Shown here: piece by piece, positions 1,477 to 18,753 of the stretch
How the letters are laid out: every line of letters starts with the position of its first letter
Numbering within the stretch: the first letter of the stretch is position 1
Translations under genes and position numbers: made by a program
The notes under the pieces: model-generated
Told to the model about the DNA's origin: nothing
The model's input: the letters and a program-made list of their open reading frames with translations, nothing else
The model's database searches: none
Source of the DNA: an uncultured Erythrobacter sp.
Lineage (GTDB): Bacteria; Pseudomonadota; Alphaproteobacteria; Sphingomonadales; Sphingomonadaceae
Direction: 5' to 3'
Assembly: GCA_947488155.1 (NCBI GenBank)
Contig: CANKYK010000001.1
Location: 1,444,439-1,508,438, forward strand
DNA length: 64,000 bases

Positions 1477-1524
1477 CGAAAGGCGGCGGCTGAGCGGCAA
1501 GCCCGTCCATGGGCGTCTTATACG

Positions 1525-2445
1525 TTACTTGATGCCGCCCCATAACTTGTAGTCAGCCCAGTCGTTTGGGAAGCCCATCATTTGTGGGTCGCCAAAGGGC
1601 ATTTCACCAACCAGCCTCTGCAAGCGTTCGCGCCACGTGTTGCCCAGTTCTGCGCGGTCCAGACAGTGCTGGATCATCGCCAGCGTGTTGTAGATCTTTT
1701 TCGGCGCGCCACGGTTCAAAGCCGTTGCCAAGTCCGGTGGCGATTTCTTCGGAAGTTTGAGTGAAACGTCGAGAGTTCTGTTCCACAACCGCCCGTGATG
1801 GGCGCAGATGTTCCGGACAATCGCCAACTGGTGGAGGAACGTCACGAAGATCACTTCGTCGAGATCAAAGGGATCCGCGACTTTTTGCCGGAGGCTCGGC
1901 TCCTTGAGCGCCGCATACCATTGCGACAACAGTCCGAACGATAGCAGTTCCGATGACATCCAAACCGGTGGCCTAGCCGGACCAGAATATTCTCGTTTGT
2001 AGTGACGGACAAACGTGTCTTTTGATCGGGCAACTTCCTTATCAAGTCGAGCGCAGTTGCGATTGAACTTGTTCTGATCGGCATAGATCGCTTGATTGAG
2101 GTAGGAGAAGCCATCTCCCAGCATCGCCATCTCGTATGCCCAAGCACCACGAGCCGCCACTTCAACCCGCTCGACTGCGTCGAGAACGAGCAGGCGCAAT
2201 TTGCGATCGAATTCGTAGAGCTCGAGTACGGTCTGGAAGTTGGTGCCTGTCTGGAATCTCGGACCAGCTTGGCCCTTTGGATGCTCGAACGGAAGCCAGT
2301 AGGCGCTTAGCCTGTAGTAGCTGATGTGCTGCAAACAGTGTTCTGCAATGGCATGATCGTCGATCACCATGCCATTTGCTTCAAGCTTGGCTATTTGATC
2401 AGCCAACGAAAGTGAGGGCTTGTTGTAGAGAGGCTTAGGCGGCAT
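1525..2445 (-). CDS. Abi family protein (Abi_2/AbiD/F-like)
   Basis: MPPKPLYNKPSLSLADQIAKLEANGMVIDD..AEHCLQHISYYRLSAYW..FDRKLRLLVLDAVERVEVAARGAWAYEMA is the typical Abi_2 N-terminal pattern. Start placed at 2445, preceded by an AGGAG RBS, rather than at the longer ORF start 2562. Confidence 0.85.
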   Translation of the reverse strand: MPPKPLYNKPSLSLADQIAKLEANGMVIDDHAIAEHCLQHISYYRLSAYWLPFEHPKGQAGPRFQTGTNFQTVLELYEFDRKLRLLVLDAVERVEVAARGAWAYEMAMLGDGFSYLNQAIYADQNKFNRNCARLDKEVARSKDTFVRHYKREYSGPARPPVWMSSELLSFGLLSQWYAALKEPSLRQKVADPFDLDEVIFVTFLHQLAIVRNICAHHGRLWNRTLDVSLKLPKKSPPDLATALNRGAPKKIYNTLAMIQHCLDRAELGNTWRERLQRLVGEMPFGDPQMMGFPNDWADYKLWGGIK

Positions 2446-2706
2446 CAATCGGGCCTCCTGCCATACGGATTTTGGGCAAAAATGACCCGCCTGGTGCGCA
2501 TCGTTGAGAGGCGTGGCGGGTTCTGTTAGCCAATTGATATGCGCGAGAGGTGAAAAAGTCAATCAGAAGTTGACCTTCGGTCCAATGCAGCCGAGCGTGG
2601 CTTTCCGCATTCGGGTGCGCTGGATCACATGCCGATCCCGATGCTCCAAATTCATTCAAATCGTAATATTCACTGCGCAGCGAATATCGCTCCAAGACCG
2701 TCAGCA

Positions 2707-3954
2707 TCAGTTCGCGGCCACGATCTTGAGGTGCGGTCTGGGCTTGTCGAGGACCTCGACAGCTTCGCGTCGGTGCTCTGGAGCCAAGTGAGCATAGCGC
2801 AAAGTCATGCTGTAATCGCTGTGGCCAAGCAGTTCGCGGATGGTGTTGAGGTCTACCGCACCCATGGCAAGGCGTGAGGCGAAGTGATGGCGCATGTCGT
2901 GCCAACGAAAGTCCACGATCTTCGCATCAGTGAGCAACTTCTTCCACGATGAGTTGACGTTGTCGAAGCGCGCGCCGTCTTCGCTTTCGAACACACGGCT
3001 GTTGCCGAGCTCGCATTGAGAGCGCCAGGATTTAAGAGTCTCATAGGCCTCTGCGTTGAGCGGGATATGTCGTGTCTTGCGCGACTTCGCAGTCTCCGCC
3101 GACACAGTGACGATCTGCCGGTCAAAATTCACATGCGACCATTTGAGGTCGAACAGTTCACCGCGCCGCATACCCGTATTGAGCGATAGAAGGACCATCG
3201 GCATCAGGTGATCGGTGAACGGAACGGCGCGCAAGCTGGGCAATAGCTCTCGGTCACGTTCAAGCCGCCACTGGTTGGCTGTGTCGCGCTCGCTGCGCAT
3301 TCTGTCTTCGCGCGTCTTGAGTTGGGCGCGCAGACGATATTCTTCGGCTTCGTCCAGGTATCGAACACGGACTTCCTTGTTCTCGCGCGCCTTCTTGACC
3401 TTGGCGATCGGGTTCACTGCAATCAGTTCCCATTCGACAGCCCGGTTGAGCGCCGCCTTGATCGCCGTGATGTCGCGATTGACCGTGTTGGGCTTGACGC
3501 CGTCTTTCATGCGCTGGGCGCGCCAGCGCTCCATATCGAGTGGCGAGATGGTCGCCATCGGCATCTTGAGAAACTTCTTGAAGGCAACCTTGAGGCGTTT
3601 GAGAGTGGCCTCTGCAGTTTTCTGGTGAACCCGCGCCCAGTCAGCGTAATGTTCGTCAATGAACTCGCCGAAAGTCGAAACCTGTTTGCGCTTCTGGCGC
3701 TCGATGCGCGGATCGACACCTGCCCAGTAAGGGCCAAGTGCACTCTTTGATGCCTCGACTGCTTGGGCGTATCCCATGCTGGTCAAGCGACCGAGCCGGA
3801 TGCGCTTTCCGCGCTCGAATTCGAGATACCATGCCTTTACGCCGGAGGGCTGGACCCGCAGCAGAAGTCCACTGAATTTAGGGTCGCGCAATTCATAAGG
3901 CTTCGCCTTTGCGGCTGCTTTTAATGCTACAGAATTGTTTAGCGCGGGATGCAT
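2707..3954 (-). CDS. Tyrosine-type site-specific integrase
   Basis: Arm-binding-like N-terminus (KPYELRDPKFSGLLLRVQPSGVKAWYLEF). Catalytic pattern NTGMRRGELFDLKW ... RWHDMRHHFASRLAMGAVDLNTIRELLGHSDYSMTLRYAHL. Confidence 0.93.
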   Translation of the reverse strand: MHPALNNSVALKAAAKAKPYELRDPKFSGLLLRVQPSGVKAWYLEFERGKRIRLGRLTSMGYAQAVEASKSALGPYWAGVDPRIERQKRKQVSTFGEFIDEHYADWARVHQKTAEATLKRLKVAFKKFLKMPMATISPLDMERWRAQRMKDGVKPNTVNRDITAIKAALNRAVEWELIAVNPIAKVKKARENKEVRVRYLDEAEEYRLRAQLKTREDRMRSERDTANQWRLERDRELLPSLRAVPFTDHLMPMVLLSLNTGMRRGELFDLKWSHVNFDRQIVTVSAETAKSRKTRHIPLNAEAYETLKSWRSQCELGNSRVFESEDGARFDNVNSSWKKLLTDAKIVDFRWHDMRHHFASRLAMGAVDLNTIRELLGHSDYSMTLRYAHLAPEHRREAVEVLDKPRPHLKIVAAN

Positions 3955-4140
3955 TGCGATCTATCCTTCGATCACAAAGTAGCGAATCCGTAAGTGAAAT
4001 GTAAGTGCAGGAGGGGTGAACGCAGTGCAACAAATGCGAACGATTCGCAACTTTGTAATACCAAAATAAAGCAATAAAAATAATTATTTATGGTTCATTT
4101 GCGTTCTGCTGCGTTGCAACAAAATGCACCATTTTTACAG

Positions 4141-4185
4141 CTCCGAAGGCAGAGGCCAGAGGTTCGAATCCTCTCGGGTGCGCCA
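4141..4185 (+). repeat. Displaced 3' half of a tRNA-Arg(CCG) gene, probable att core of the integrative element
   Basis: CTCCGAAGGCAGAGGCC-AGAGG-TTCGAAT-CCTCT-CGGGTGC-G-CCA: anticodon loop CT-CCG-AA, 3' anticodon strand, complete T arm and 3' acceptor strand plus CCA. No matching 5' half immediately upstream; integrase gene about 190 bp away. Confidence 0.8.
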
Positions 4186-4288
4186 TTTTGGTGTGGTGCT
4201 TTGAGATCTCAGATCTCGGCGCGTGCCACACTCCACACGCTTCTCACAAAGCAGCCTTCACTCGCACGCACCCTCACAAGTCCCGCAA

Positions 4289-6457
4289 TTACGCCGCTTT
4301 CCTGAATGAGAGCAGCCGACCGCCGCGCTGTTTGATCGATTTGGACAGCCAGCCGCCTTTTTGCCGTGAGGTGATTTCTTTCAGCTCTGCTGCGGCGCGT
4401 TGCAGGGACACCTGCTCCGCGATCAGCGCCTTGTAGATTTTGTCAGAGGTACGGCGGCGGCGCACGGCATCGCTCGGGTCGATAAAGCCCTCCGCCATAT
4501 TGATCAGGCGATCAGCGGCATCTTTAAGGGCGCTACGCGCTTCATCATCGCTGCCGTCGTCATTCGCGTCGATCGGATCCTGCGCGCGCACTTGTTTGTC
4601 GAGCCGCGCGGCCAGAGCGTCCAATTGCGCTGGCGAAATGCTCACCAGGGAATTGAGGTGCGTGCGGGCAGAAGCGATACTTTCCAGAACCGCCCGTTCG
4701 CTCAGAATGCCAAACTCCTGGAAGCTGGCGAGCGCGCGGTATCCGCGCTCAATCTCGACTGCCTCGTCAGAGCCGAGCTGCTCGCACGCCTTGGCGACCG
4801 TTTCCCACGCCTGCCAGCGGTAAACCCAGTCAAGGCCAGTGCCCTTGATGTTCTGCATGCCCATGATGCGATTGGTTAGGCCCGGTGGGGTGCTGTCGGC
4901 GACCAGGCGCACAATCGCCTCGCCCTTCGTATAGGTGTCGCGTACCGGCAGCAGCTTGGCCTTGAAGGCTTTGCCCAGCAGCGCGTGCATTTGTGCATCA
5001 AGCGCAGCCGGATCGCCGCCTTTAGCGACTGCTTGCTGGAGCTCGGCGAGGGCGCGCGTGTTTTCTGCCATGGCTTCGTAATGCGCGAGAATGGCCTCGT
5101 AGTTTTGGACACCGGCGCCGCTCAATGTCTCGGCGAGTTGGCCAGATTTGGCCGCTGCAATCGCGTCTGCTGCGCTCAGCACATCCGCCTGCGGTGCAAG
5201 CATAGCTGCCAGCAGTCCGTCGAGACTCGCCTGGTCCTGAGCGATGCGCTGATGCTTGGTCAGGGCTTCCAATTTCGCCAGTGGCGCGGTGTCATCTTCA
5301 AACAGGGTGAGGTTGGCGGCATAGGCCTCCCATTCCTCGTTGATGAAGCCGATCAGCCCCTCGACATTCGATCCGATCAGCACGTGGCGATCAGCCGCGA
5401 CATCATGCACCAGCATGCGCGCGAACACGCGGCTGCGCGGAACGCGGTCGGCGCGGTTGTTGACGACGGTGCTGATGAAGATCTCTGGGTCTTTCGCAAG
5501 GTCATGCTCGGCCATGCCCATCCGGTCCCAATTGCCCATCGCGCCAAAGCGTTCATTGGCCGACATGCCCATGATAAATTCCAGTGTGCGGCCATTGATC
5601 GTGGAACGCGGATAGGTTTTGAGCACGCCCAAATCGGCCACCACCCGGTCCGACATTTCGCGCACGCAGTAATCGTGTTCCAGACCCAGCTCATCGCCCA
5701 TCGCGGTTACCAGGGCGATGTTATAGGGGTGCTCTTCATAGGGGAAACGGTCGAGCAGATCCCGATGCACCAGTCCGGCCTCTTTCCAGCCTACAGTGCG
5801 CATGTCTGTCTGGCCTTTGGCTGCGCCCTCTTGCAGGATAGGCAGCATTTCCTCTTCGGTCGTGAGCAGCTGCGATCCGTTCGGAATGAACTCGCACATG
5901 ACCTCTGGAATATTGCGTCCAGCCGGGCCTTGGACGTCCTCATGATCGGGATAGGTGTTGGTGATGGTGCCAATATCGTCGCGCATCCAATCCTGCTGCA
6001 GCACGCGAACATAATCGGGATTGAGGCCCATGCATTCCCATAGGAACACGCGTGTTTTCAGACCCTTGGAGGTTTTCATCAGGTTGAACTGTTCCCAGAT
6101 GGTCGCCTTGTCATAGGGGCGGAACAGGAACATTTCGGTGAGGCCGCCAAACGGCGTGCCGATCAGGAACATTGCCTCGCAGCCAGTGGTTTTCGAGACG
6201 ATGGATGGGCCTACCGCATTCATCAGGCCCGCTTTCAGCCGCTCCGTACCGGATTTGCCGCGCGTGCCCCAACCGCCCAGCACCAGGCTCAGCGATTTGC
6301 GCAGACGCCGGGCGTACCAGCCAAGCGCGATATGCCGGGTGAAGAACCACAGGCTGGCGGCGATAAGGAAGATCGCCAGCTCGATGAGATTGTTCTCATA
6401 GACCGTGGAGGCATAGACCAGAGCCTTGTCCGCGAGAGGGGCGAGCGTATCGATCAT
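4289..6457 (-). CDS. PgsB/CapB-like poly-gamma-glutamate synthase-type protein (Mur ligase fold) with C-terminal extension
   Basis: N-terminal TM segment, P-loop LGGWGTRGKSGTERLKAG, WECMGLNPDYVRVLQ..DWMRDDIGTITNTYPDHEDVQGPAGRNIPEVMCEFIPNG as in PgsB/CapB. Confidence 0.8.
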   Translation of the reverse strand: MIDTLAPLADKALVYASTVYENNLIELAIFLIAASLWFFTRHIALGWYARRLRKSLSLVLGGWGTRGKSGTERLKAGLMNAVGPSIVSKTTGCEAMFLIGTPFGGLTEMFLFRPYDKATIWEQFNLMKTSKGLKTRVFLWECMGLNPDYVRVLQQDWMRDDIGTITNTYPDHEDVQGPAGRNIPEVMCEFIPNGSQLLTTEEEMLPILQEGAAKGQTDMRTVGWKEAGLVHRDLLDRFPYEEHPYNIALVTAMGDELGLEHDYCVREMSDRVVADLGVLKTYPRSTINGRTLEFIMGMSANERFGAMGNWDRMGMAEHDLAKDPEIFISTVVNNRADRVPRSRVFARMLVHDVAADRHVLIGSNVEGLIGFINEEWEAYAANLTLFEDDTAPLAKLEALTKHQRIAQDQASLDGLLAAMLAPQADVLSAADAIAAAKSGQLAETLSGAGVQNYEAILAHYEAMAENTRALAELQQAVAKGGDPAALDAQMHALLGKAFKAKLLPVRDTYTKGEAIVRLVADSTPPGLTNRIMGMQNIKGTGLDWVYRWQAWETVAKACEQLGSDEAVEIERGYRALASFQEFGILSERAVLESIASARTHLNSLVSISPAQLDALAARLDKQVRAQDPIDANDDGSDDEARSALKDAADRLINMAEGFIDPSDAVRRRRTSDKIYKALIAEQVSLQRAAAELKEITSRQKGGWLSKSIKQRGGRLLSFRKAA

Positions 6458-8472
6458 GCTGGCTCCTCCGACCCGAAAAACTTGGCGATTTCAGGATTGA
6501 CTGGGCTGTCCGCGTCATAGCCGCGATACGTGGTCTCGATCCCATGGTCGCGCAGAGCCTCAAGGAATTCCGCAGGCTCTCGGTTGCGCTGATTGGCGAG
6601 CGGCGCAAACCCGCGCGAGATGCGCCAGAATGCGCGCGCACGGCTGTACAGGCCAGCGGGCGGGGTCAGGGTTGTGATCCCGGCACTGGTGAAGATCTCA
6701 ATCGGCTCGCCTTGGTCCAATGCAGCCAGCACCATATCGATCAGCGGCAGGTAATTGCGCCAGCCGCCCTCGCTGCTTTCAAACAGGGGTTCGCCCGGAA
6801 CTTTAGTGGGGGCGAGTTCGGCCATGCGTGCGCTTGGGGCCAGTATCGCGCCGAAATAATGGCGTCCGGTGGTGTGAATATGCGCCTGACGTTTATCGGT
6901 GGCGGAATTGCGCCCTTCGAACAGGACGCGCCAAAGCCGCCGTTTGATCCATTCGCCACGCTGAATGCGCGGACGGCGACCGGTCTTAAGCGAGAGGCCA
7001 AAATCGTTCTGAGCGAGCACGGCCATCACCCTACCGACCTGCTCCCTGTCTTTGTCGAGCCAAGGTTTGAGTGCTTTGATCGGGCGGATATCCGCCTCCA
7101 ACTGATCGCGGGTGACCTCTCGGATGGCTTCGGCAATCTCGAGCGCATCAAGGCCTGACATCAGCCATGCCCGTTCAGCCGCTTCATCGGCCCAGCGCAG
7201 CAGCTTGGGCGAAAGGCGGCGCGCCTGAAACATGGCAATATGCTGGCGGATTTGAGCGATGGTCTGGTCACATCCCAGATCGTCCGACCAGCGGCAGAAG
7301 GCGGCGAGAGTTGATGCTGCATCGAGTGTGATACGCAGCACGAATTCGTCGCTTTCATGAGCCAGAATATGGCCGATATGTGCGGCGTAAATGTCCGGCG
7401 TCGTCGCCCGCAGCATGCGCGGGACATCGGCGAAGATTGCGGCGCGAACTTGCGTGTCGCTATCATCGCGCAGGGCGACAATCGTCTCAGCCGCGACGGG
7501 CTTTGGCAGCAGGTGCAGTGTATCGGCGAGCGATTGACGCACGGCGCCGCTTTCGTCTTCGCCCAGTTTCTTCAGCAACCTCGCAAACGCTTCATCGAGC
7601 GCAAAGTTTGCGCTCAGCAGGCGCACCAGATGGCGACGCAGGAACAGCTCATTGTCCGCCGCACGCGCCGGCTTGGCCGAGAGCGGCTGCTTCAGCCGAG
7701 CGTTCACTGCCGTCGCGATGGACTTGGGCGAAAGTGCGAGCAGTGCGTCAAAGGCGGCGCATTGCACCCATACATCTTCGCTTTCATCCAGGCACACCCG
7801 GCGCGTCGCGCTCAGCACAGCCTCCAGCCAGGCGCCAAAGGGCCAATGATCGATTTGCTTGGCGATGGTCGCGAGGCAGGTGTGAGCGGCGTAGCGGATG
7901 CGCGCATCCCCGCGCCAGCTGCGCATCGCGTCCAGCAGATCGTCGAACAGATCGACGAAGAACGCGGTGTGGACCATCATCGGGTCAGCCGCGACCGCAT
8001 CGGCGGCGATCAGGCCGAGCCGCTCAACCGCATGGGCCAGGGCGCGCTCGCGCTCACCAACGCGTTTATGGAACCGCTCAACCGCCGCATCGGCATCGAA
8101 ATAGGTATCGAACGCCTTGCGGTCGCTGTTCAATTGCTTGCGGTCCGCGCCCAATGCACGGGCGAAATCAAGGATCGCGGCGCGCTGTTCGGCCTGGTCA
8201 ATGGCGTTGGCGTGGCGGGTCTGAAACTCGCGCTCAGCATTGGTCAGAGCGGCGATGGAATCGCTTTGTTTGGCGCAATATCGCGCGAGCAATTCGGCGT
8301 GCGTACGCGGATCGGCAAATTCACTTTGCTTGGATGCCATCGCCAAGATTTCAGCGTGCACATCCTCGAAAACGGGGCGCATTTTAGGCGCGAGACCGGC
8401 TGCCAAGCGGTCCGCAAGCATGCGCTCCTGAGGTGCGGCGAGCCCAGCTTCAATTTTGGTGTGGACGCTCAT
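6454..8472 (-). CDS. HEAT-repeat-like helical protein of Pgs-like operon
   Basis: Long alpha-helical ORF with repeated A..AL..L units (DESGAVRQSLADTLHLL, DDSDTQVRAAIFADVPRML, ESDEFVLRITLDAASTLAAF). 4-bp ATGA overlap with 4289..6457. Start taken at MSVHTK. Confidence 0.6.
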   Translation of the reverse strand: MSVHTKIEAGLAAPQERMLADRLAAGLAPKMRPVFEDVHAEILAMASKQSEFADPRTHAELLARYCAKQSDSIAALTNAEREFQTRHANAIDQAEQRAAILDFARALGADRKQLNSDRKAFDTYFDADAAVERFHKRVGERERALAHAVERLGLIAADAVAADPMMVHTAFFVDLFDDLLDAMRSWRGDARIRYAAHTCLATIAKQIDHWPFGAWLEAVLSATRRVCLDESEDVWVQCAAFDALLALSPKSIATAVNARLKQPLSAKPARAADNELFLRRHLVRLLSANFALDEAFARLLKKLGEDESGAVRQSLADTLHLLPKPVAAETIVALRDDSDTQVRAAIFADVPRMLRATTPDIYAAHIGHILAHESDEFVLRITLDAASTLAAFCRWSDDLGCDQTIAQIRQHIAMFQARRLSPKLLRWADEAAERAWLMSGLDALEIAEAIREVTRDQLEADIRPIKALKPWLDKDREQVGRVMAVLAQNDFGLSLKTGRRPRIQRGEWIKRRLWRVLFEGRNSATDKRQAHIHTTGRHYFGAILAPSARMAELAPTKVPGEPLFESSEGGWRNYLPLIDMVLAALDQGEPIEIFTSAGITTLTPPAGLYSRARAFWRISRGFAPLANQRNREPAEFLEALRDHGIETTYRGYDADSPVNPEIAKFFGSEEPA

Positions 8473-9332
8473 GCCGCGGCCTCCACCAGGCATGCGGCCA
8501 GCTTTGCGCGCAAGGCGCCGTCTTCGACCATTGCGGCGCGCAGGCCAGCGGAGATTTCGATATGGACAAAACCGTCAAACCCGGCTTCGCGCAGCAATTG
8601 CCCTTGAGCATTCGAGAGCGCGCCCAGCTCCCCAGTGTCGCCGGGATAGACGAGCACAGGAACGGGCGCGAAGGCGATGCTTAGGCAATCCGCCAGATCC
8701 AGCAGCCGTTCGCTCGGTTCTTCGGTGCCATTGCTGAGGATCATGCCGGCGCTCTGCGCAGCTATGCTGTCTCGGCGTTCCCCGTCGAAACCGTGCAACT
8801 GCACATTCAGGCCGTTTGGCGCGGCTTCAGCAAAGCCAAGTGCGAAGGCGCTGAACAAATGATCCTTGGTGCGGGCCAGATCGAGCGCGTGCTCGCACCC
8901 GCTGGTCTTGCGACGCGGCGCAGAATTCCAGGCGGCGGCCTGCGCGCCTGTTTCCAGAAACAGAGCGGAAGCGAGGCTACCGGTGTGACGGTCTGATCCG
9001 CGGTGCGGCGCGGTGATCGCCAGCGGTTGCGCGGCTCCTTCGCGGACCCAGTAGATTCCGCGTGCCTGACAATCGCCAGCGCCTTCGCTCAGCAGCACAG
9101 CGTCCGGCGCGCCGGGCACGGCCGAAGCCTCGAGACCCAGCTCTGCCAGGTCCGACAAACGATAAGTGTCCCCGCCAAGCAGTGCGGCAAAGGTGCTTTG
9201 CGCGCGGGCGAGTTCAGCATTATCTGCGAAGGCTGTGCCTTGGACCTCGCCAAATGGAGGAAACAGATAGGCCGCGCCCGCGAGAATAGCTGCCGCTGCG
9301 CCGCCTGCCAAGATAGGCTTCGCGCGGCTCAT
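8469..9332 (-). CDS. Membrane-anchored periplasmic protein, possible metallohydrolase-like domain
   Basis: N-terminal hydrophobic anchor. Motifs LAITAPHRGSDRHTGSLASALFLETGAQAAAWNSAPRR and NVQLHGFDGERR. 4-bp overlaps with both neighbouring genes. Confidence 0.55.
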   Translation of the reverse strand: MSRAKPILAGGAAAAILAGAAYLFPPFGEVQGTAFADNAELARAQSTFAALLGGDTYRLSDLAELGLEASAVPGAPDAVLLSEGAGDCQARGIYWVREGAAQPLAITAPHRGSDRHTGSLASALFLETGAQAAAWNSAPRRKTSGCEHALDLARTKDHLFSAFALGFAEAAPNGLNVQLHGFDGERRDSIAAQSAGMILSNGTEEPSERLLDLADCLSIAFAPVPVLVYPGDTGELGALSNAQGQLLREAGFDGFVHIEISAGLRAAMVEDGALRAKLAACLVEAAA

Positions 9333-10114
9333 GGCGCATCACCTTCGCCAAAGCTCTCGGAGATGTCGTCGCGCGATGCCTCGTATAGAACCAGCATGGT
9401 GTAATCGCGCCCGCTAATGCCCAATGGACCCACCGCACGCCATTGGTTGCGGCCGAGGTAAAGACGCTCATTGCGTGTCAGCATGTCGGCCGGAAAGGCA
9501 TTGGCCTCAGTCAGTCGGTCGCGCGTTTCATCGCTCAATCGTTGGTAAGCAGCCAGAGATTGGGAGCCGAGATAGGTGCGCTGCTCAAACACCTGCACAT
9601 CGACGCCCAGAATGCCGCGATCAATGTCGAACATCTCCAGTTCCAACCTTGCGGCGGGCACGGGGCTTTCGACCAGCAATTGGTCTTGCTCGGCGACCAA
9701 TTCGGGCTGGGTACGGAAAAACCGCCAGGTGTTGCCCGAGGCAAAAACCACGTCGGGCGAATCCGCTTGCAGATAGGCGTCATGGACGGAAACCTCTTGG
9801 CCATTCGCCCCGATCCAGCGCATCCGCAGGCCGTAGACAAAGCCTTTTTCAAGGCCGCGCACTTCCTTTGTCACCGAGGGTGCGAGCAGGATTTTGGCTT
9901 TGGTTACCGGCTGGGAGAAGGTGAAGGCCAGCGGGTCATTTTCCGGGATGCGGTAGACAATGGAGCGCTTTGAAATGCGGGCATCGCGCGCGGTGATATC
10001 GCGCACATCGGTAAGGTAGCTGGCGAGTGGAAGCGCGTATTCGCGCCCAGCCCAGCCAGATGCCAGGGCCAGCAACGCAAACAGCAAAGACTTGGCAAAC
10101 ATAGACAGTGTCAT
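9329..10114 (-). CDS. Membrane-anchored periplasmic protein of Pgs-like operon
   Basis: N-terminal TM (MTLSMFAKSLLFALLALASGWAG), then soluble beta-rich sequence. 4-bp overlaps with 8469..9332 and 10111..12672. Confidence 0.55.
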   Translation of the reverse strand: MTLSMFAKSLLFALLALASGWAGREYALPLASYLTDVRDITARDARISKRSIVYRIPENDPLAFTFSQPVTKAKILLAPSVTKEVRGLEKGFVYGLRMRWIGANGQEVSVHDAYLQADSPDVVFASGNTWRFFRTQPELVAEQDQLLVESPVPAARLELEMFDIDRGILGVDVQVFEQRTYLGSQSLAAYQRLSDETRDRLTEANAFPADMLTRNERLYLGRNQWRAVGPLGISGRDYTMLVLYEASRDDISESFGEGDAP

Positions 10115-12672
10115 TCTGCGCGCTCCCCGATGCCAGGGAACATCAACCAGCCAAAGGCATAGCGCCGCTCGCTGGTGCTTTCGATATAGCGCAGCGACAT
10201 GCTGGGGCGGGCTTCCATACCTGCCTGATCATAGGCATTGGTCACCGTTTCAGCGCGCAGCCCGGCGCTGCGCAGGGCGGAGATGACCTCGCTAAACGCA
10301 GGCTGTTCTGGCCCAATGCGGTCTTTCGCGACCAGCACATCGACGCCGCCCTGATAGTTGACCGCCTCGCGTGGGCGAGCGCGCAATTGGAAGATCATGG
10401 GATCATCCACGCCCTCTTGGCTGCGGACCCATTCCTGCCATGTGACATCAAAGATCGTGTGCGGATCGCGCAGGAAACTGTCGCTTCGGGTGGCTACAAA
10501 CAAAGCGCCCGAATCCCATTCCCGGTGCACGGCCACGCCAATCCGGGCGGGCAGGACGCCGCGCGAGTTTTCAAAGGTCAAAACCGCCTTTTGCGGCTCT
10601 TGCCCCTCGGCGAGGAAGATATTGCCTTCATCGCGACCAGCAGCAGACAGGCTCCAATGCATTTTGGAACCAAAGCGGCAGCGGGAGATGTCCATTCCCG
10701 CCATTTGCGCCGCGGCGCTGGCAATTTGAGGTGTTTGCCCAGCGCGCACGCGCTCGATCATAGGCGCAGCGATTTCAAACCGGGCAAAGGCGAGTTGGGG
10801 CAGGCCGTCCCAATGGCTGCCCTCTGCCGCACTGCGAGACAGAGCGCACACTTTGGGTTGCTCGGTCGGCTGAGCGGGCGTGGTCAGGCGTGCGATATGG
10901 CGCAAAGACGCCTTGCTCAGCTCCAAGGTTGCATAATCGCCGCGAAGCCCGCGTCCCTCGCCAGCCAAGCTGACTTTCAGGTCAGGCGCCACTTGGCGCA
11001 AAGCCGCGACATTGGCGGCGGCGCCTGCGCCATCGGCAAAGGCAAAGCGCGATGCGGAGCCGGGTTCCGCTGCGCTGACCACAATATGCGCGGTTTGCGT
11101 GGCATCGATAAAGATCTGCGCGACATTGCTGTCGCTGTTCCGTCCGGCTGGCGCAGGAGCGGCGAGCACCAGCCAGCGCGCATCCTGATTGCGCTGCAGG
11201 GCGAGGGCGGCATTGGCGAGACCCGGCATGGCTGTCGGGTCAGGCAAGATGATTGCCTGATCACGCGCAGCTTTGGGGTCAAACACCAGCAATTCTGCGC
11301 CCTTATCGTCATCGCGGATAATCGCGAGGCGGCCATCCTCGATCCTGAGCAAGCGCCAACCGCTGGCGCGCTGATGAAATTCGGGTGCGATTTCAGGCAC
11401 GCCTTCTTCGATCAGTTCGACCAGCCGCGATAGGGTTCTGCGGCCCTCATTCGACAAGGGTTGGGCCGCGCCGCGCATCACGCGGGTGTGCGCATCGCCG
11501 ACCGCGTTCACGATCAGCGCGTTGAGCTGAGGCGAATTGCCAGAGCGCAGGCCGTCTGCCTGAACCGGGCCATCGTTCCATGGCGCGCGCGCGGTTGCAG
11601 CGGTCAACGTAAAGCCGACAAAATTGCCGATTACCGCGCCGGCCAGGCTGACCTGCAAGGTGGAGCGGGCAACGCGCGGGAAGATGTCTTTGTCATGCGC
11701 CTTGATCGCGATAAGCGTGGAAAGCAGATAGCCGAAGCCGAAGAAGTCGGTCGTCTTCACGTCGATCCCCTGCCACACGATGAACCAGCCCAGCGCCATT
11801 TTCCAAGCAAAGCTGATGTTGAAGAAGAGCAGCAATTTGCGCCCGCCCTCCAGCGTGACATTGGCCATAAACGGCAGCTGCAGGATCATTCGCGCGATGC
11901 AACAGATCAGGATCGCTTCGCCGAACGAGGTCAGGATTTTGGTTGGCTGATACCATTGCAGCGCGATTAGCGCCGGGATCAGAATACCGGAGAAATCCCA
12001 GCCATATTTGACGTTGTAATGGCTCGCGATCAGCGCGGTCAGTGTCAGGATGATATAGGCTTTGGGACCGGCGAGGATCGAGCTTGCCAGCCCTTCATAG
12101 AGGTAGAACACGCCGCTGATGCGGAAATTGGTAATCTCCATCAGGCCGTAACGCACGATCAGATAGGTGAGGCCAATCGTAACGCAGGCCATCGGCAGGC
12201 CGCGCTTCAGCCCTGGCTTCCAAAACTGGTTCGCCATCAGCGAGATGATGACGAGGCCGAAGCTTTGCAGATTGTTTTCCCAATCGATCCGCCGGTCAAA
12301 GTTTTCCTCTAGCCAGCCGGAAAATTCCGGCAGCAGCAGGCCATCAAACGACAGTCGTACCGCTATGCTGGCGAGTATGAGGCCCATAAAGCGGTCGCGG
12401 CCAAACAGGCTTGGGAAGCGGCCCGGCGCGAGCTTTTGAGAAAACACCCAGACGATGAGGTAAGCAACCACCGCCTCGACGCTGATCACGAGCGCCGCAA
12501 ACGGCTTCACGATCATCAGCGGTACGAGATAGCCTGGCACCACCAGACCTGACAGCACCCAGCCATAGCGCAGGTTGAAAAAGCACATGACGAACACACC
12601 GACCCACACGGTCGTGATGATCGATCCGGCCAATCCGCCTTCAGGAAATATGGTGAGAGGAAAAAGGTCCAC
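10111..12672 (-). CDS. PgsC/CapC-like polytopic membrane protein with tandem CapC units and large C-terminal extramembrane region
   Basis: NLRYGWVLSGLVVPGYLVPLMIVKP resembles the PgsC/CapC signature (..GLVVPGYLAL..). A second copy is NVKYGWDFSGILIPALIALQWYQP. 853 aa, against about 150 aa for PgsC. Confidence 0.75.
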   Translation of the reverse strand: MDLFPLTIFPEGGLAGSIITTVWVGVFVMCFFNLRYGWVLSGLVVPGYLVPLMIVKPFAALVISVEAVVAYLIVWVFSQKLAPGRFPSLFGRDRFMGLILASIAVRLSFDGLLLPEFSGWLEENFDRRIDWENNLQSFGLVIISLMANQFWKPGLKRGLPMACVTIGLTYLIVRYGLMEITNFRISGVFYLYEGLASSILAGPKAYIILTLTALIASHYNVKYGWDFSGILIPALIALQWYQPTKILTSFGEAILICCIARMILQLPFMANVTLEGGRKLLLFFNISFAWKMALGWFIVWQGIDVKTTDFFGFGYLLSTLIAIKAHDKDIFPRVARSTLQVSLAGAVIGNFVGFTLTAATARAPWNDGPVQADGLRSGNSPQLNALIVNAVGDAHTRVMRGAAQPLSNEGRRTLSRLVELIEEGVPEIAPEFHQRASGWRLLRIEDGRLAIIRDDDKGAELLVFDPKAARDQAIILPDPTAMPGLANAALALQRNQDARWLVLAAPAPAGRNSDSNVAQIFIDATQTAHIVVSAAEPGSASRFAFADGAGAAANVAALRQVAPDLKVSLAGEGRGLRGDYATLELSKASLRHIARLTTPAQPTEQPKVCALSRSAAEGSHWDGLPQLAFARFEIAAPMIERVRAGQTPQIASAAAQMAGMDISRCRFGSKMHWSLSAAGRDEGNIFLAEGQEPQKAVLTFENSRGVLPARIGVAVHREWDSGALFVATRSDSFLRDPHTIFDVTWQEWVRSQEGVDDPMIFQLRARPREAVNYQGGVDVLVAKDRIGPEQPAFSEVISALRSAGLRAETVTNAYDQAGMEARPSMSLRYIESTSERRYAFGWLMFPGIGERAE

Positions 12673-12684
12673 GGCGCGCTCGTC

Positions 12685-13092
12685 TCAGCCCTGCTCCGCT
12701 GCTGTGCCAGCCGAGACAGGCGCGGTTCCGCCAGCCAGCGCGCGCGCGGCGCGCTTGACCAGCTCAGCAGGCTCCACCGGCTTTCGGGCAATATCGACCA
12801 CACCCAGGGCGAGGTGCTGCTCGGTCAGCTTCTCTTCGGTTGCAGAGGACACGATCATCACCGGCGGGCGATGCGCGTCGCTCTCCGCTAGCAGACGCAG
12901 GAATTTGATTCCGTCAATCTTCGGCATGACAAGATCGAGCAGGATCAAGTCAAAGCGTGTAGCCTTCACCTGTTTAAGGCCCGCATCTCCGTCGCTCGCC
13001 ACGTCAACTTCATAGCCTTCGAGCTGCAACGTCAGCTGCAACAGCCCCGCCAGAATGGGATCGTCATCGATCACCAGAATACGCGCCGCCAT
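12685..13092 (-). CDS. Single-domain response regulator (REC)
   Basis: ILVIDDDPILAGLLQ...FDLILLDLVMPKIDGIKFLRLL...PPVMIVSSA...DIARKPVEPAELV. Confidence 0.93.
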   Translation of the reverse strand: MAARILVIDDDPILAGLLQLTLQLEGYEVDVASDGDAGLKQVKATRFDLILLDLVMPKIDGIKFLRLLAESDAHRPPVMIVSSATEEKLTEQHLALGVVDIARKPVEPAELVKRAARALAGGTAPVSAGTAAEQG

Positions 13093-15731
13093 CAGCCGAC
13101 CCCTCGCAAATCTACGTTAAAACCAAAGCCATTGGACTGGCTGCCCCAATAGGAAACGCTGGCCGACCAGCGCGTGACCTTGGCCATACCCTCGCCAATT
13201 ACGCGGTATTCGCCGACCGCGCCTTCTTCGTAATTGGCGATCAGCCACAATAGCCGGTCAAAGCCGATCCCAAAGCCGCCAGAAATCCGGATGTGGGTGC
13301 GCCCTTGCAGCTCCTCGAGCTTCAATTTTACCACGCCGTGCTGTGGCGTATCGGCGATCACCACGCGCAGCATTGCGACCAGCATATCAGCCAGCGCATT
13401 GGGCTCTGCCAGAGTGAAACCGCTGACGCTTGGGTGCTCCGCTTCGATAATAACGCCTAGCTCATCTGCCAGAGTAGAGGCGCGGGCAATCGCATCTTTG
13501 GCAACAGCGGCGGCGTCGACTGGATAGCAGGCCTCGGTCAGATCACGCGTTTCAGAGCGGATCAAGCCAGCAACCTCATCAAGGCGGCTGGTCGCGCGGC
13601 GGGCGGTCTCGCTAATGCGGTCAACCACGCTGCGCACTTGCTCGCTGGCCAGCCGCTCGTCACTGGCGAGCTGAGAGCCGAGCAGGATCGCCTCAAAATC
13701 ATTGCGCAATTGCAGATCGATGAACTTCGCCACCGCTTTGCGCAGGTCAGCGGCGCGGTTCACATCGCGCATATCAATCGCTTCCAGCACCAGAATACGA
13801 TCCGCGCCGTGCGCATGGCTGACAGGTGCGGCGAGGCGCAGCATCCGCTCGCTCTGGCGATTGCCGTCGCCCAGATCACGCATCGGCATGCGCATTTCAG
13901 AGCCGTTCAGCATCAGGTCTTCGATCAGCGCCTCGACACGCTCTGCGTCGAGTTCTGTGAGCGCCAGCAAAGCCTCCGACAGCGAGGTGTCGAACAGGTT
14001 GAGCCCTGCCTCACGGTACAGCTCCTGCATCGCTTCATTGGCGTGCAGGGGAGAGCCGATCAGGTGGAAGATGATAACTGCGGTGTCGATCGTGTCGAAC
14101 CCGCGGCGCACTTGCTCAGATTCGTTGGCGACCAGTGCGATGGCGCTTGCGACCTTATCATCGAGCGGCAGATAGCGGCTTTCCTGGCTGGCCCGCGCGT
14201 TGAGATCAGCGCGCCAGCGGAACAGCTCGCGGAAACTTGTGACAATTGCGCGCACCAGATGCGCCGATTTGCCCGGTGTGGCGGTGTCTGGTCGGGTGTG
14301 GAGCCAGAACAATTGCTGATCGCCCGCGCCGACCCAGCCGATCCGTGCTTCGCCTGCCCAGCTAGGCACGATATCGGCGGCATCGCGCACCGCAAAGGTC
14401 GCGCGCAGGTCTTTCAAGATCGCGGCGAGCTGTTTGGGCGCAATAGCAATATCTTCGATTGAGGCGTTGTTGGCCGCGACCGGCTGTAGCTGGCCATTGG
14501 GCAGCAATTCGACCAACAGGCTGCGCTCAACCCCTGCATATTGTGCGGCGGAACCCAGCAGCTGCGGCAGGCGTGCGCCTTCACGCAGGGCCGAGCGATT
14601 GAATGAGCTTTGCACCGCGCGCGAGGCGGTGCGTTCCAAGCGGCGATCTTGCGAAGTTTCACGCTCGATCACGCGCTGGAATGTGATGATCCATGGGGCC
14701 AGCATCAGCGCGGCCACGGGCAGCAAAGTGCCCGTAAACAGCAAAACGGCCCAGCAGGCCGCGGCGATCAGCAGGCTGAAACTGATAGGTATGAGCACTG
14801 CCAGCCGCTTGGGATCGGTCTCGCGGTAGACCAGCGATAGCAGCGCGCCGAGCGCGAGCAGCATTACCCACACCTGCCAATCGTGGGCGTAATAGCTGAT
14901 TTGATCTGTCCTGAGTGCGTTCACTGTGTGAGCGCGGAAAATCGCCTCGCTGGTGGAATGATCATTCGGACTAAGCGGTGTGCTGAGCGATCCGCGCAGC
15001 GCCTCTGGCTGAACCACCATGGCGACCAGACCGGCTAACTCGCCCGGCTGGATCTCGCCGCTGGTTAGTTGGCTGGCCTTCAGGATCGGGATGCTTTGAC
15101 GGTTTGGCATCGGCACCAGAAATTCGCCGCGTACCGGTTTTTTGCCAGCGAGTGCTGCGTCAAACACCGGTATGGTCTCGCTGCGCCCAGGAAGGGCCGC
15201 CGATTGCACGCGGTTGATGCCATATTGCGCCGGAGCCAAGGTCCGCGCCGTGGGTATGGCCGATCCGACATTGCCTGTGGCTTCCAGCTTCCAGCTTTCA
15301 TTTTCGGGCAATTGCTGCGCTGGCAGGCCAATGATGACGGGAACAGCGCTTGAGGCGACGCGGCCACGGTCAGCGCTAAGATAGCCGATCCGCTCAACGC
15401 CAAGATTGGCAAGCGAGCGTTCCAATGCTGTGAACTTGGCTGGGTCTTGCGCGGCGAAAGCGGGATCGCGCTCAATCACCACGACGCTGGGCTGGCTGCC
15501 CGCTTGGTTGACGGTGACGGCATCGAAGAACCGCCCATCCACTTGCGTAAAGGCGCCAAGCTGATGAAGGGCAGCCAGCGCAATCGCGACCAATAGCGGG
15601 CCGAGCCATTGGCCCAGCAGCTCGCGCCGGACAGCGCGCATGCGCCGCGAGCTGCGCGAATTCGTGCGCGCAGAAGCGGAGCCTGATGGCTTGCTGTCTT
15701 CCAGAGCAGGTGTGGGCGAAAGCGCGGTCAC
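13092..15731 (-). CDS. CHASE2/PAS sensor protein with degenerate histidine-kinase-like C-terminus
   Basis: CHASE2-like periplasmic domain (GRFFDAVTVNQAGSQPSVVVIERD...), three TMs, PAS-like segment (DTIDTAVIIFHLIGSPLHANEAMQELYR), coiled segment and HATPase-like end (RTHIRISGGFGIGFDRLLWLI). TGATG overlap with the REC gene. Confidence 0.7.
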   Translation of the reverse strand: MTALSPTPALEDSKPSGSASARTNSRSSRRMRAVRRELLGQWLGPLLVAIALAALHQLGAFTQVDGRFFDAVTVNQAGSQPSVVVIERDPAFAAQDPAKFTALERSLANLGVERIGYLSADRGRVASSAVPVIIGLPAQQLPENESWKLEATGNVGSAIPTARTLAPAQYGINRVQSAALPGRSETIPVFDAALAGKKPVRGEFLVPMPNRQSIPILKASQLTSGEIQPGELAGLVAMVVQPEALRGSLSTPLSPNDHSTSEAIFRAHTVNALRTDQISYYAHDWQVWVMLLALGALLSLVYRETDPKRLAVLIPISFSLLIAAACWAVLLFTGTLLPVAALMLAPWIITFQRVIERETSQDRRLERTASRAVQSSFNRSALREGARLPQLLGSAAQYAGVERSLLVELLPNGQLQPVAANNASIEDIAIAPKQLAAILKDLRATFAVRDAADIVPSWAGEARIGWVGAGDQQLFWLHTRPDTATPGKSAHLVRAIVTSFRELFRWRADLNARASQESRYLPLDDKVASAIALVANESEQVRRGFDTIDTAVIIFHLIGSPLHANEAMQELYREAGLNLFDTSLSEALLALTELDAERVEALIEDLMLNGSEMRMPMRDLGDGNRQSERMLRLAAPVSHAHGADRILVLEAIDMRDVNRAADLRKAVAKFIDLQLRNDFEAILLGSQLASDERLASEQVRSVVDRISETARRATSRLDEVAGLIRSETRDLTEACYPVDAAAVAKDAIARASTLADELGVIIEAEHPSVSGFTLAEPNALADMLVAMLRVVIADTPQHGVVKLKLEELQGRTHIRISGGFGIGFDRLLWLIANYEEGAVGEYRVIGEGMAKVTRWSASVSYWGSQSNGFGFNVDLRGVG

Positions 15732-16164: not shown

Positions 16165-16932
16165 GTGAAAGAAGCATCAAACACCCAGTGGACGACCGCG
16201 AAAGCCGGTGCCAGCGCAAAAGCGCTGCGCGTGCTGTTGGCCGAAGATACGCCGATCAGCGCCGAGGCGATGCGGGCGATGGCTGAGCATTTCTCGGTCG
16301 ATATGGACATTGCCGCCAATGGGCTGGAGGCGATTGACATGGTCGAGACCGCGAAAGCCGACGGACGGCCGTATTCGCTAATGTTGGTCGATGTAATGAT
16401 GCCGATTTTGGACGGTGTTGAGACGACCAGGCGTCTGCGCGCTCGCGGGTTCGATGCTGAGGCATTGCCTATTATCGCAGTCACCGCCGCCACCAGCTTT
16501 GACGAAATCCGCTCTTACCGCGCTTGCGGAATGCAGGCTTTCCTGGCCAAGCCGGTCGCGCTCAAGGATCTGGGTGCGACGCTGGAGGCTTGGGGCCACA
16601 AGGCTGACAAGCAGTCGGCAAAATCAACCACCACCATTGAGCCAGCATTACTCGAGGCGCTGGAGCAGCAATTTCGAGATCGTAATACGCGCACGCTCAA
16701 ACTGGTCGAAGCTGCGCTTAAGAACTCTGACTTTAGCGACGCAACCGTCAATGAAATTAGGCACTTGCTTCATCAGATAGCGGGGACCGCGAGCACTTTT
16801 GGCGATCCCAAACTGAGCGAGATGGCGCGCACGCATGAGCATTCGCTGATCGAAGCAGGAATGAATGAGGAGGAGCTCCAAGAGCATCTCCGGAAGGCTG
16901 CAAAAAGCCTCAAAGAAAGGATCAAACCGTGA
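16165..16932 (+). CDS. REC-HPt protein (response regulator receiver plus histidine phosphotransfer)
   Basis: RVLLAEDTPISAEAMRAM...YSLMLVDVMMPILDGVETTRRLR...; HPt-like RHLLHQIAGTASTFGDPKLSEMA. GTG start. Confidence 0.85.
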   Translation: MKEASNTQWTTAKAGASAKALRVLLAEDTPISAEAMRAMAEHFSVDMDIAANGLEAIDMVETAKADGRPYSLMLVDVMMPILDGVETTRRLRARGFDAEALPIIAVTAATSFDEIRSYRACGMQAFLAKPVALKDLGATLEAWGHKADKQSAKSTTTIEPALLEALEQQFRDRNTRTLKLVEAALKNSDFSDATVNEIRHLLHQIAGTASTFGDPKLSEMARTHEHSLIEAGMNEEELQEHLRKAAKSLKERIKP

Positions 16933-17906
16933 AGTTTCCGTTCTGGATGTCGATGCCGCAGCGCATGACATGGCTGGCGCCAGCGTTTGCCCTGGCTGTA
17001 CTGGGTTCGCCTGCGGGCGCACAGGTGGTCGAACCACAAGAAGAAGTGGCCGTTGAAGAAGCTGCCTCAGTGGATCGCGTCCAATTTGATGGGTTGGTCG
17101 AAATTCGCGGGGTCGAATCCGACGTGGATTTTGATCAGGGCGATGCAATCGACAGCTCTGGCGTGGGCGTGCGCGCCCGGCTTGGCGTGACATTTGACCT
17201 CAGCGAGACGACAAGTGTTCGGGCGGAGGCCGAAGGACGTATCTTTGAGTTTCGCGACGAGGCCCGCGATGGATTGGAAACCGCGGTTGGCCGTTTGCAC
17301 GTGACGCATCAAGTCTCTGAGGAAGTTCAGCTTCGCGGCCATCTGCGCCGCTTTGAAAATATCGCTGTTTTGGAGGCATTTAGCGCAGATCAAACGAGCA
17401 TAGGCGCGCGCGTTCAATGGCAAAGTGGCAACGATCGGGTGCGCGTAACCGCCGAATACCGTGAGCGTGAGTATGATACGAGCGTGGGCGGTGATGGTGA
17501 TGGCTATCAGGTGACTGCGCAATACAACCGCCGCCTTGGCCGCTATCACTGGATCCGTTTGGATGTTCGCCAAGAAGACATGCAAAGCGATAACGAGCCG
17601 CGCCGCAGCTTTGAACGCCAAAGCGCGCGGGTGAAATACAGCCTACCGATTGCCAAGCGCCTGCGGCTGCGCCCGTCGCTCGAATATCGCCAGTGGGATT
17701 ATGACGCTCGTATCGCTCAAGGTGACCCAAGCGGCGCATTGCGCGAAGACAGCTATGTTGCGCCCGCGGTTGAGCTTGCCTGGGGCCGCGCATCGCGCGG
17801 GCTCTATGCCAATGCCAGTGCGGAATACCGCATCAAATCCTCCAATGATGAACGCTTTGATGATGATGCAATCCGTGTCGGCGTCCGAATTGGCTATCGC
17901 TTCTAA
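16929..17906 (+). CDS. Outer-membrane beta-barrel protein
   Basis: Signal peptide (..FALAVLGSPAGAQ). Alternating amphipathic strands to the C-terminus ending IRVGVRIGYRF, with terminal Phe as in BAM substrates. 4-bp overlap with the REC-HPt gene. Confidence 0.75.
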   Translation: MKFPFWMSMPQRMTWLAPAFALAVLGSPAGAQVVEPQEEVAVEEAASVDRVQFDGLVEIRGVESDVDFDQGDAIDSSGVGVRARLGVTFDLSETTSVRAEAEGRIFEFRDEARDGLETAVGRLHVTHQVSEEVQLRGHLRRFENIAVLEAFSADQTSIGARVQWQSGNDRVRVTAEYREREYDTSVGGDGDGYQVTAQYNRRLGRYHWIRLDVRQEDMQSDNEPRRSFERQSARVKYSLPIAKRLRLRPSLEYRQWDYDARIAQGDPSGALREDSYVAPAVELAWGRASRGLYANASAEYRIKSSNDERFDDDAIRVGVRIGYRF

Positions 17907-18136
17907 GGGGGCAAAGAGCACGTGATCACCGCTCAAACGGGGAGTGGTTGCGATTCGTTTTGGCACGATCCAACAGACCAAAATTAAGGGGCTTAAAACC
18001 CGCTCTACCGGGCGTGAGGACCCCAAAATTAACTTCCTTTTAGGTACATAGGTTTCCCTTTTGTAACAGGGTTCCTCCGTATTGTTGCTGAGCGACGGGC
18101 ACATCGGTGTCCACGATTCGTTTAGGAGACCAAGCA

Positions 18137-18748
18137 ATGAAAACTGCAATCTTTGCCGCTGTTGCTGTACTAGCGACCAGCACCTCAGCTTTCGCTCAGG
18201 ACGCTGCCGGCTCGACCACTGACGTCGACGTCGACAACGATGTTGTAGTCGTGGACACAGACGTGACGGTTGTTGAAGACAGCTTCGACAACTTCAACGA
18301 CAGCTTCGATGACAATTCGGACAACAACAGCTTCAACGACAACTCAAACCGTGAGTTCAACGATAGCTTTGACGACAACCGCGATTTCGTTGACAGCAAC
18401 AATGACAATTCGGTCAACAGCAGCGACAACTCAGAGCGCACGTTCAATGACAGCTTCGATGACAACTCGGACACCTTCACTGCGAACACCAACTTCAACA
18501 GCAACAATGTCTTCAATGACAATGCGATCGTTGCAGAAGCGACCCTGTCTAACGTTGTAACCGGCGTTGATGTGGACTTTGGCGATGTTGAAGATTCGGC
18601 TCGTTTCGTGAACCGTCTTAGCAACTCAGGCAATGCCTTCCGCAACTATTCAGGCCTGAACGCTCTCAACCAAAACACCGGCGTTGGCGCTTCGCAAAAC
18701 GCGAGCGTTACGATTGCCGTGTCGAGCGAAAACTTCGACGTAAACTAA
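18137..18748 (+). CDS. Secreted Asn/Asp/Ser-rich repeat protein, candidate functional-amyloid subunit (FapB/C-like)
   Basis: Signal peptide MKTAIFAAVAVLATSTSAFAQ. Three FNDSFDDN repeats and C-terminal GLNALNQNTGVGASQNASVTIAV. RBS TAGGAG upstream of 18137. Confidence 0.65.
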   Translation: MKTAIFAAVAVLATSTSAFAQDAAGSTTDVDVDNDVVVVDTDVTVVEDSFDNFNDSFDDNSDNNSFNDNSNREFNDSFDDNRDFVDSNNDNSVNSSDNSERTFNDSFDDNSDTFTANTNFNSNNVFNDNAIVAEATLSNVVTGVDVDFGDVEDSARFVNRLSNSGNAFRNYSGLNALNQNTGVGASQNASVTIAVSSENFDVN

Positions 18749-18753
18749 GTCGC

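Follow-up and report, generated by a model that had tools for sequence, protein, structure and literature searches.

Polyglutamate capsules and slimes have been studied almost entirely in one-membrane cells of the Bacillus type. The distribution of PgsB/PgsC or of PGA capsules has been surveyed (PMC4497714, PMC5542703), and from Cloacimonadota a CapBCA operon of the canonical kind is on record (PMC13082233). In a literature search that left preprints and most subscription journals outside, we found no published description of a PgsB-PgsC architecture with HEAT, CHASE2 and outer-membrane barrel components, and no description of how such a polyanion crosses the outer membrane of double-membrane bacteria. 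The cellulose (Bcs), PNAG (Pga) and alginate (Alg) systems each combine an inner-membrane synthase, a periplasmic hydrolase-like protein and an outer-membrane barrel, and the barrels of synthase-dependent exopolymer secretion have 16 or 18 strands.

The locus described here lies in the window (the whole stretch of 64,000 nucleotides that was analysed) in the 3.2 Mb, 100% complete genome of an uncultured Erythrobacter sp. With the Bacillus PgsBCA(E)/CapBCA(D,E) systems it shares Mur-type ligase motifs, a CapC membrane protein, a CapA-like partner and an associated candidate polymer hydrolase; it departs from them in having a HEAT fusion, an extra C-terminal ligase domain, a doubled CapC with a long soluble half, a protein Y, an outer-membrane barrel and CHASE2, REC and REC-Hpt proteins, in an unlinked CapA (which is in-cluster in Silicimonas), in scores below the equivalog cut-offs, and in that no PgsE was recognised. 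The synthase, hydrolase-like protein and barrel are also the common ground with Bcs, Pga and Alg, but here the synthase is an ATP-dependent Mur-type amide ligase rather than a glycosyltransferase, the predicted barrel has fewer strands, and no TPR or PilZ domain was detected. We consider it likely that the locus encodes a system, with a PgsB/PgsC-type synthase at its core, that makes a polyamide and secretes it across the cell envelope; the polymer is probably poly-gamma-glutamate-like. What the computations show is gene content, synteny, ligase motifs, the predicted folds of X and OMb325 and the co-occurrence of CapA.

The operon and the genes that travel with it

All seven open reading frames of the block are present with tight junctions on the minus strand at 4289–15731 (Table 1), as a preliminary description of the sequence had claimed. 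The direction of transcription puts the CHASE2 sensor (15731) first and PgsB (4289) last, in agreement with that description, which has a sensor at the start and a CapB-like ligase at the end. Overlaps of 4 bp (ATGA) join PgsB to HEAT, X to Y, and Y to PgsC2, the REC and CHASE2 genes overlap by 1 bp (TGATG), and a gap of 12 nt separates PgsC2 from REC. The HEAT and X genes overlap by 4 bp if HEAT begins at its second ATG (8472) and by 25 bp if it begins at the first (8493); this choice of start is the one nuance to the reported pattern of five 1–4-bp overlaps and a 12-nt gap.

Ten order-level genomes have a full-length PgsB, and every one of them shows synteny over the entire block; parts of it are found again at the GTDB loci, and it is confirmed as a real arrangement and not a chance one. 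Seven genes is nevertheless too small a unit: the REC-Hpt and barrel genes (16165–17906, plus strand), which are coupled by 4 bp, travel with the block, and the conserved set is at least nine genes. These two genes accompany it in nine order-level relatives as well as in the window; in some genomes they point away from the block, while in others they sit behind PgsB in convergent orientation. Nearly all Erythrobacteraceae and Sphingomonadaceae GTDB loci with enough flank carry the barrel gene, the REC-Hpt gene or both; neither was detected in the cluster of Silicimonas (Paracoccaceae). The proposal that this is a PgsB/PgsC-type system of a Gram-negative cell, in which the core proteins are enlarged and a pair of periplasmic proteins anchored in the membrane is present along with signalling genes, is supported. 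Overall the earlier interpretation is partly supported, and its core idea stands.

Table 1. Features of the block, its neighbours in the window, and the CapA-like gene
Feature	Coordinates	Strand	Basis
PgsB/CapB-like Mur-family ligase, 722 aa	4289..6457	-	TIGR04012 (175 bits), conserved motifs
HEAT-repeat protein	6454..8472 (second ATG; ORF opens 8493)	-	PF13646; fused to PgsB in most relatives
X287, membrane-anchored periplasmic protein, candidate polymer hydrolase	8469..9332	-	AlphaFold2, Foldseek, conservation
Y261, N-terminally anchored periplasmic protein	9329..10114	-	A4 profile
PgsC2, 853 aa, two CapC membrane units and a long soluble C-terminal half	10111..12672	-	PF14102 x2
Stand-alone receiver (REC) domain	12685..13092	-	PF00072
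CHASE2-type sensor that opens the operon; its histidine-kinase core is degenerate	13092..15731	-	CHASE2 and HATPase_c in orthologues
REC-Hpt phosphotransfer protein	16165..16932	+	PF00072 and PF01627; synteny
OMb325, outer-membrane beta-barrel with 14 strands by prediction, candidate for the exit channel	16929..17906	+	AlphaFold2, Foldseek, synteny
Two candidate amyloid subunits	18107-18748 (Asn/Asp-rich), 18828-19205	+	
C39 peptidase, FapD-like	19220-19939	+	weak against NCBIfam cut-offs
FapF-like barrel	20489-21952	+	weak against NCBIfam cut-offs
CapA-like protein, 693 aa, beside recN-like gene	L154 7324-9405, G000 contig C2	+	

Distribution and gene order

A search for the gene order in other genomes, which the preliminary description had suggested, points to about 320 relatives in GTDB genomes and to similar sets in hundreds of sequenced genomes, with the order partly altered outside the window's group. 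The GTDB scan gave 361 pattern matches, 320 of them encoding relatives, of which the best 80 were kept for listing. Among the matches listed, relatives occur in the alpha-, beta-, gamma- and zetaproteobacteria, Nitrospirota and Desulfobacterota (Thermodesulfobacteriota), and also in metagenome-assembled genomes (MAGs) labelled Myxococcota and Planctomycetota; the closest PgsB proteins among these best 80 of 320 are 95% identical and come from uncultured Erythrobacter. Occurrence is sparse: of 398 genomes sampled across the phylum 7 are positive, and of 201 genomes of the family 10 have a full-length PgsB. All of the TIGR04012 matches above 50 bits, found in 299 Pseudomonadota genomes, are of this system's type. 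A genome from another family of the order (G013) encodes a canonical PgsB of 402 aa, and the two forms of PgsB are therefore distinguishable.

Outside the window's group the order is CHASE2-(REC)-PgsC2 (about 1080 aa)-Y (about 820 aa)-X-large protein(s)-HEAT::PgsB, as found in Methylovulum, Halomonas, Thiodiazotropha, Nitrospirae, Sulfuricellaceae and one Planctomycetia MAG. The large protein is either a single polypeptide of 1700–1900 aa or a pair of 1060–1120 and 720–740 aa. By strand periodicity its C-terminus is barrel-like, exceeding the shuffled mean in 8 of 8 cases, six of which stand clearly above it (by at least about 1.8 SD), and within the set one member has OmpA and another a SPOR domain. 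TPR repeats had been guessed by eye in the gammaproteobacterial protein, and none were detected in the gammaproteobacterial barrel-like proteins or in the window. In Vreelandella massiliensis (G203) a single contig has the cluster twice (L132 and L133); in the L133 copy Y is followed directly by the large barrel-like protein, X being absent, and that protein has extra C-terminal sequence. No meaningful matches came from searching PDB sequences with profiles of PgsB, PgsC2, X, OMb325 and the gammaproteobacterial barrel.

The ligase and its HEAT-repeat partner

The PgsB-like protein matches TIGR04012 with 175.3 bits (E 1.5e-51, 306 of 380 positions), below the equivalog cut-off of 222.7 bits. 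A transmembrane segment at about residues 27–45 is followed by the P-loop GTRGKSG at 64–70, E141, N167/D171/H172, H243 and N333–R338; all of these motifs from the P-loop onward, together with K89/G92/E94, are invariant in 29 diverse members, and the Mur-ligase motifs align with those of a PgsB of canonical length. A CapB-like protein lacking ligase active-site geometry would have refuted the preliminary description, and because the motifs are both invariant and shared with canonical PgsB, that refutation does not arise. The C-terminus carries an extra domain of about 320 aa with a conserved RQKGGWL motif; the HEAT half has a further conserved block, and no named domain matched either of the two.

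The HEAT assignment is weak in the window's protein (PF13646, E 9e-4) and above cut-off in the fused relatives L124 and L130; in the C-terminal part of the HEAT protein lies an invariant block, KRQ..H..GR / TKVPGEPL. Beyond the clade of the window, HEAT and PgsB are joined in a single protein of about 1400 aa. In the PgsB tree, six split Erythrobacter-type sequences make up one supported clade nested within the fused ones, which most simply suggests that HEAT and PgsB were ancestrally one polypeptide of about 1400 aa that underwent a single late fission in this Erythrobacter lineage, and that the two proteins very likely function as one unit. Two further split entries come from metagenome assemblies and may be sequence errors. 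One member of the family (L157, G608:C1) has a decayed HEAT::PgsB gene at 1942-4470 on the minus strand, in which the frame runs on but the part of the ligase core beyond the P-loop has been lost.

PgsC2, Y and the candidate hydrolase X

PgsC2 contains two copies of PF14102 (138 bits, E 2e-40, above cut-off), and its match to TIGR04011 (52.6 bits) is below the equivalog cut-off of 96.45 bits. In gammaproteobacterial orthologues the soluble half includes two degenerate X-like domains (hhalign 1.9e-9 and 4.5e-7, as single-comparison values) that do not retain the metal His and may be polymer-binding pseudo-enzymes. The match is confined to these orthologues, the direct comparison of X with the C-terminal half of the window's own PgsC2 being not significant (E 0.034). 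Y261, for which Pfam gave no identification, is homologous to the first approximately 250 aa of the 820-aa protein in other phyla (A4 profile, 53–112 bits at non-alphaproteobacterial loci).

Ten members of the X family matched no Pfam family. The AlphaFold2 model of X (pLDDT 84) has a fold resembling zinc carboxypeptidases and N-formylglutamate amidohydrolases in Foldseek comparisons made with this predicted model (E 8e-5 to 1e-3, TM 0.32–0.45), and a search of viral structures likewise returned matches of these types. Its neighbours include CCP5 (a deglutamylase; E 8e-5), Csd4 (an enzyme of peptidoglycan-peptide trimming) and Atu2144 (2odf); PghP itself is absent from the 50 best structural matches. 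The zinc-carboxypeptidase-like class is that of the gamma-PGA hydrolases PghP and PghL, and 2odf is also a near Dali neighbour of PghL (PMC6506827).

Residues P109, H110, D114, N136, R140, H180, E235, H257 and E259 are invariant in 18 of 18 members, gammaproteobacterial ones included. They resemble two known arrangements, the H/E/H with its distal E in PghL and the Asn/Arg pair in carboxypeptidase A. The metal-site-like set (H110, D114, H180 and E259) has an Asp in place of Glu and a different spacing (H-xxx-D, compared with H-xxxx-E in PghP), and because of these departures from the PghL and carboxypeptidase A site the activity is a prediction: X is predicted to be a metal (zinc) hydrolase rather than merely an anchored protein. 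Compared with PghP and PghL (MEROPS M86), X shares the fold class by prediction and the proximity to 2odf and has a similar His-acid-His arrangement with a distal Glu, but it has no sequence match to them, has D at H+4 and not E at H+5, is membrane-anchored, and is encoded with the synthase.

A predicted outer-membrane barrel encoded with the synthase

The AlphaFold2 model of OMb325 has 14 strands (pLDDT 86) and matches OmpT (a Vibrio porin), OmpC, OmpG and CymA in Foldseek. On the evidence of model and synteny, a dedicated outer-membrane barrel is encoded with the synthase, as in synthase-dependent secretion, and OMb325 is a candidate for the channel. It also resembles EpsL of the XrtB/PEP-CTERM EPS clusters, weakly (NCBIfam, E 4e-8, far below the equivalog cut-off); the context of EpsL is polysaccharide, whereas here it is a ligase. 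That a barrel is present in both the alphaproteobacterial systems and those of other phyla we infer, rather than read from an alignment, because homology between OMb325 and the barrel-like domain of the gammaproteobacterial large protein is undetectable (hhalign E 0.08).

Adjoining the block in the window is a Fap-like functional-amyloid cluster (18107-21952, plus strand), weak against NCBIfam cut-offs and possibly an alphaproteobacterial variant of Fap.

An unlinked CapA-like protein

CapA/PgsA had been described as absent, which is correct for the operon and incorrect for the genome, where an unlinked homologue lies at G000:C2:1015323-1017401. The adjoining gene we take, from reading its translation, to be recN; in relatives a bamD-like gene is also nearby. 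The protein is co-linear over 614 aa (28%) with a CapA-like protein that lies inside the Silicimonas cluster. Among 201 genomes of the family the long CapA-like form is present in 7 of 10 with PgsB and 3 of 191 without it (Fisher p 6e-9, with kinship ignored), and all seven CapA copies with at least 47% identity are in PgsB-positive genomes; three PgsB-positive family genomes are without the long form. In Bacillus subtilis, gamma-PGA can reportedly be made by PgsBC in the absence of pgsA (PMC6029982).

Signalling genes

The stand-alone REC domain (PF00072, E 1.3e-27) conserves the phospho-acceptor Asp and the Lys in alignment. Pfam did not detect CHASE2 in the window's sensor, and it is above cut-off in the orthologues L123, L124 and L128, as is HATPase_c in some orthologues. 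In sensors of the window's group the kinase-like core is kept, but the His of the H-box is gone, replaced by Asn in most, and so is the Asn of the N-box; the sensor is for this reason probably not a conventional kinase. A degenerate-kinase sensor co-encoded with a stand-alone REC and a REC-Hpt protein is an unusual signalling set.

A proposed trans-envelope machine

We infer the polymer chemistry, topology, order of steps and regulation as follows. At the cytoplasmic face HEAT::PgsB would use ATP to activate an amino acid, most likely glutamate, and would extend an amide-linked chain, which the double-CapC protein PgsC2 would hold and thread across the inner membrane. Y, X and the soluble half of PgsC2 would handle the chain in the periplasm, with X trimming or releasing it, and OMb325, or the larger barrel-like protein in other phyla, would let it out through the outer membrane. 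The unlinked CapA/PgsA-like protein would probably assist, and the CHASE2 sensor, REC and REC-Hpt proteins would switch output. For each of these steps the cluster offers a candidate, among them a channel through the outer membrane, an enzyme to cut the chain in the periplasm, and a sensor. Within the block we recognised no gene that would supply substrate, whether a racemase or another. Because the equivalog cut-offs are not reached and no CapA gene is linked, the system is not filed as a member of PgsBCA, though it would work like one. The broader proposal, of a multi-phylum class of trans-envelope polyamide secretion systems in which HEAT::PgsB and a double CapC with tandem pseudo-hydrolase domains synthesise, a paralogous active hydrolase cuts, and outer-membrane barrels export, we hold to be evenly balanced between right and wrong.

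The same machine might instead make another product, from a different amino acid or as a chain on a lipid, glycan or protein acceptor of the envelope, with the barrel serving something else. The sub-cut-off PgsB score and the approximately 320 extra C-terminal residues with their own invariant block are in keeping with this, as is the mention of CapB-like genes in a study of archaeal pseudomurein biosynthesis (PMC11915815); however, the double CapC, the CapA-like partner and the fold class of X, that of gamma-PGA hydrolases, point to a free gamma-glutamyl-type chain, and we think a different product rather unlikely. It is very improbable that the locus is a canonical gamma-PGA capsule operon with acquired neighbours, the barrel, X and Y being unconnected with the polymer: the core PgsB, PgsC and CapA genes are indeed all present, but X, Y and a barrel-like gene hold their positions across phyla, the HEAT fusion is ancestral, and the PgsB matches from the 299 Pseudomonadota genomes are uniformly of this type. 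Least credible of all is that the block belongs to, or is co-regulated with, the Fap-like cluster, since despite direct adjacency in the window and the FapD- and FapF-like genes, synteny weakens this reading (no Fap-like gene lies in the 20-kb loci of ten relatives, and the block is conserved without Fap), and we reject a direct link.

If synthesis and export of a polyglutamate-type polymer proves correct, the hundreds of carriers, which include marine, sulfur-oxidising, methane-oxidising and halophilic bacteria, would have an overlooked matrix or capsule polymer, the ligase would offer a new architecture for biopolymer engineering, and the missing outer-membrane route for such polymers in Gram-negative bacteria would be supplied.

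Sequence flanking pgsB

Positions 1-4190 of the window contain an integrase gene (2707-3954, minus strand), an Abi_2 gene (1525-2562, minus strand) and an MmeI target-recognition fragment (70-1476, plus strand), with a sequence like a tRNA 3' end near 4140-4185. It seems that a genomic island abuts the 3' end of pgsB.
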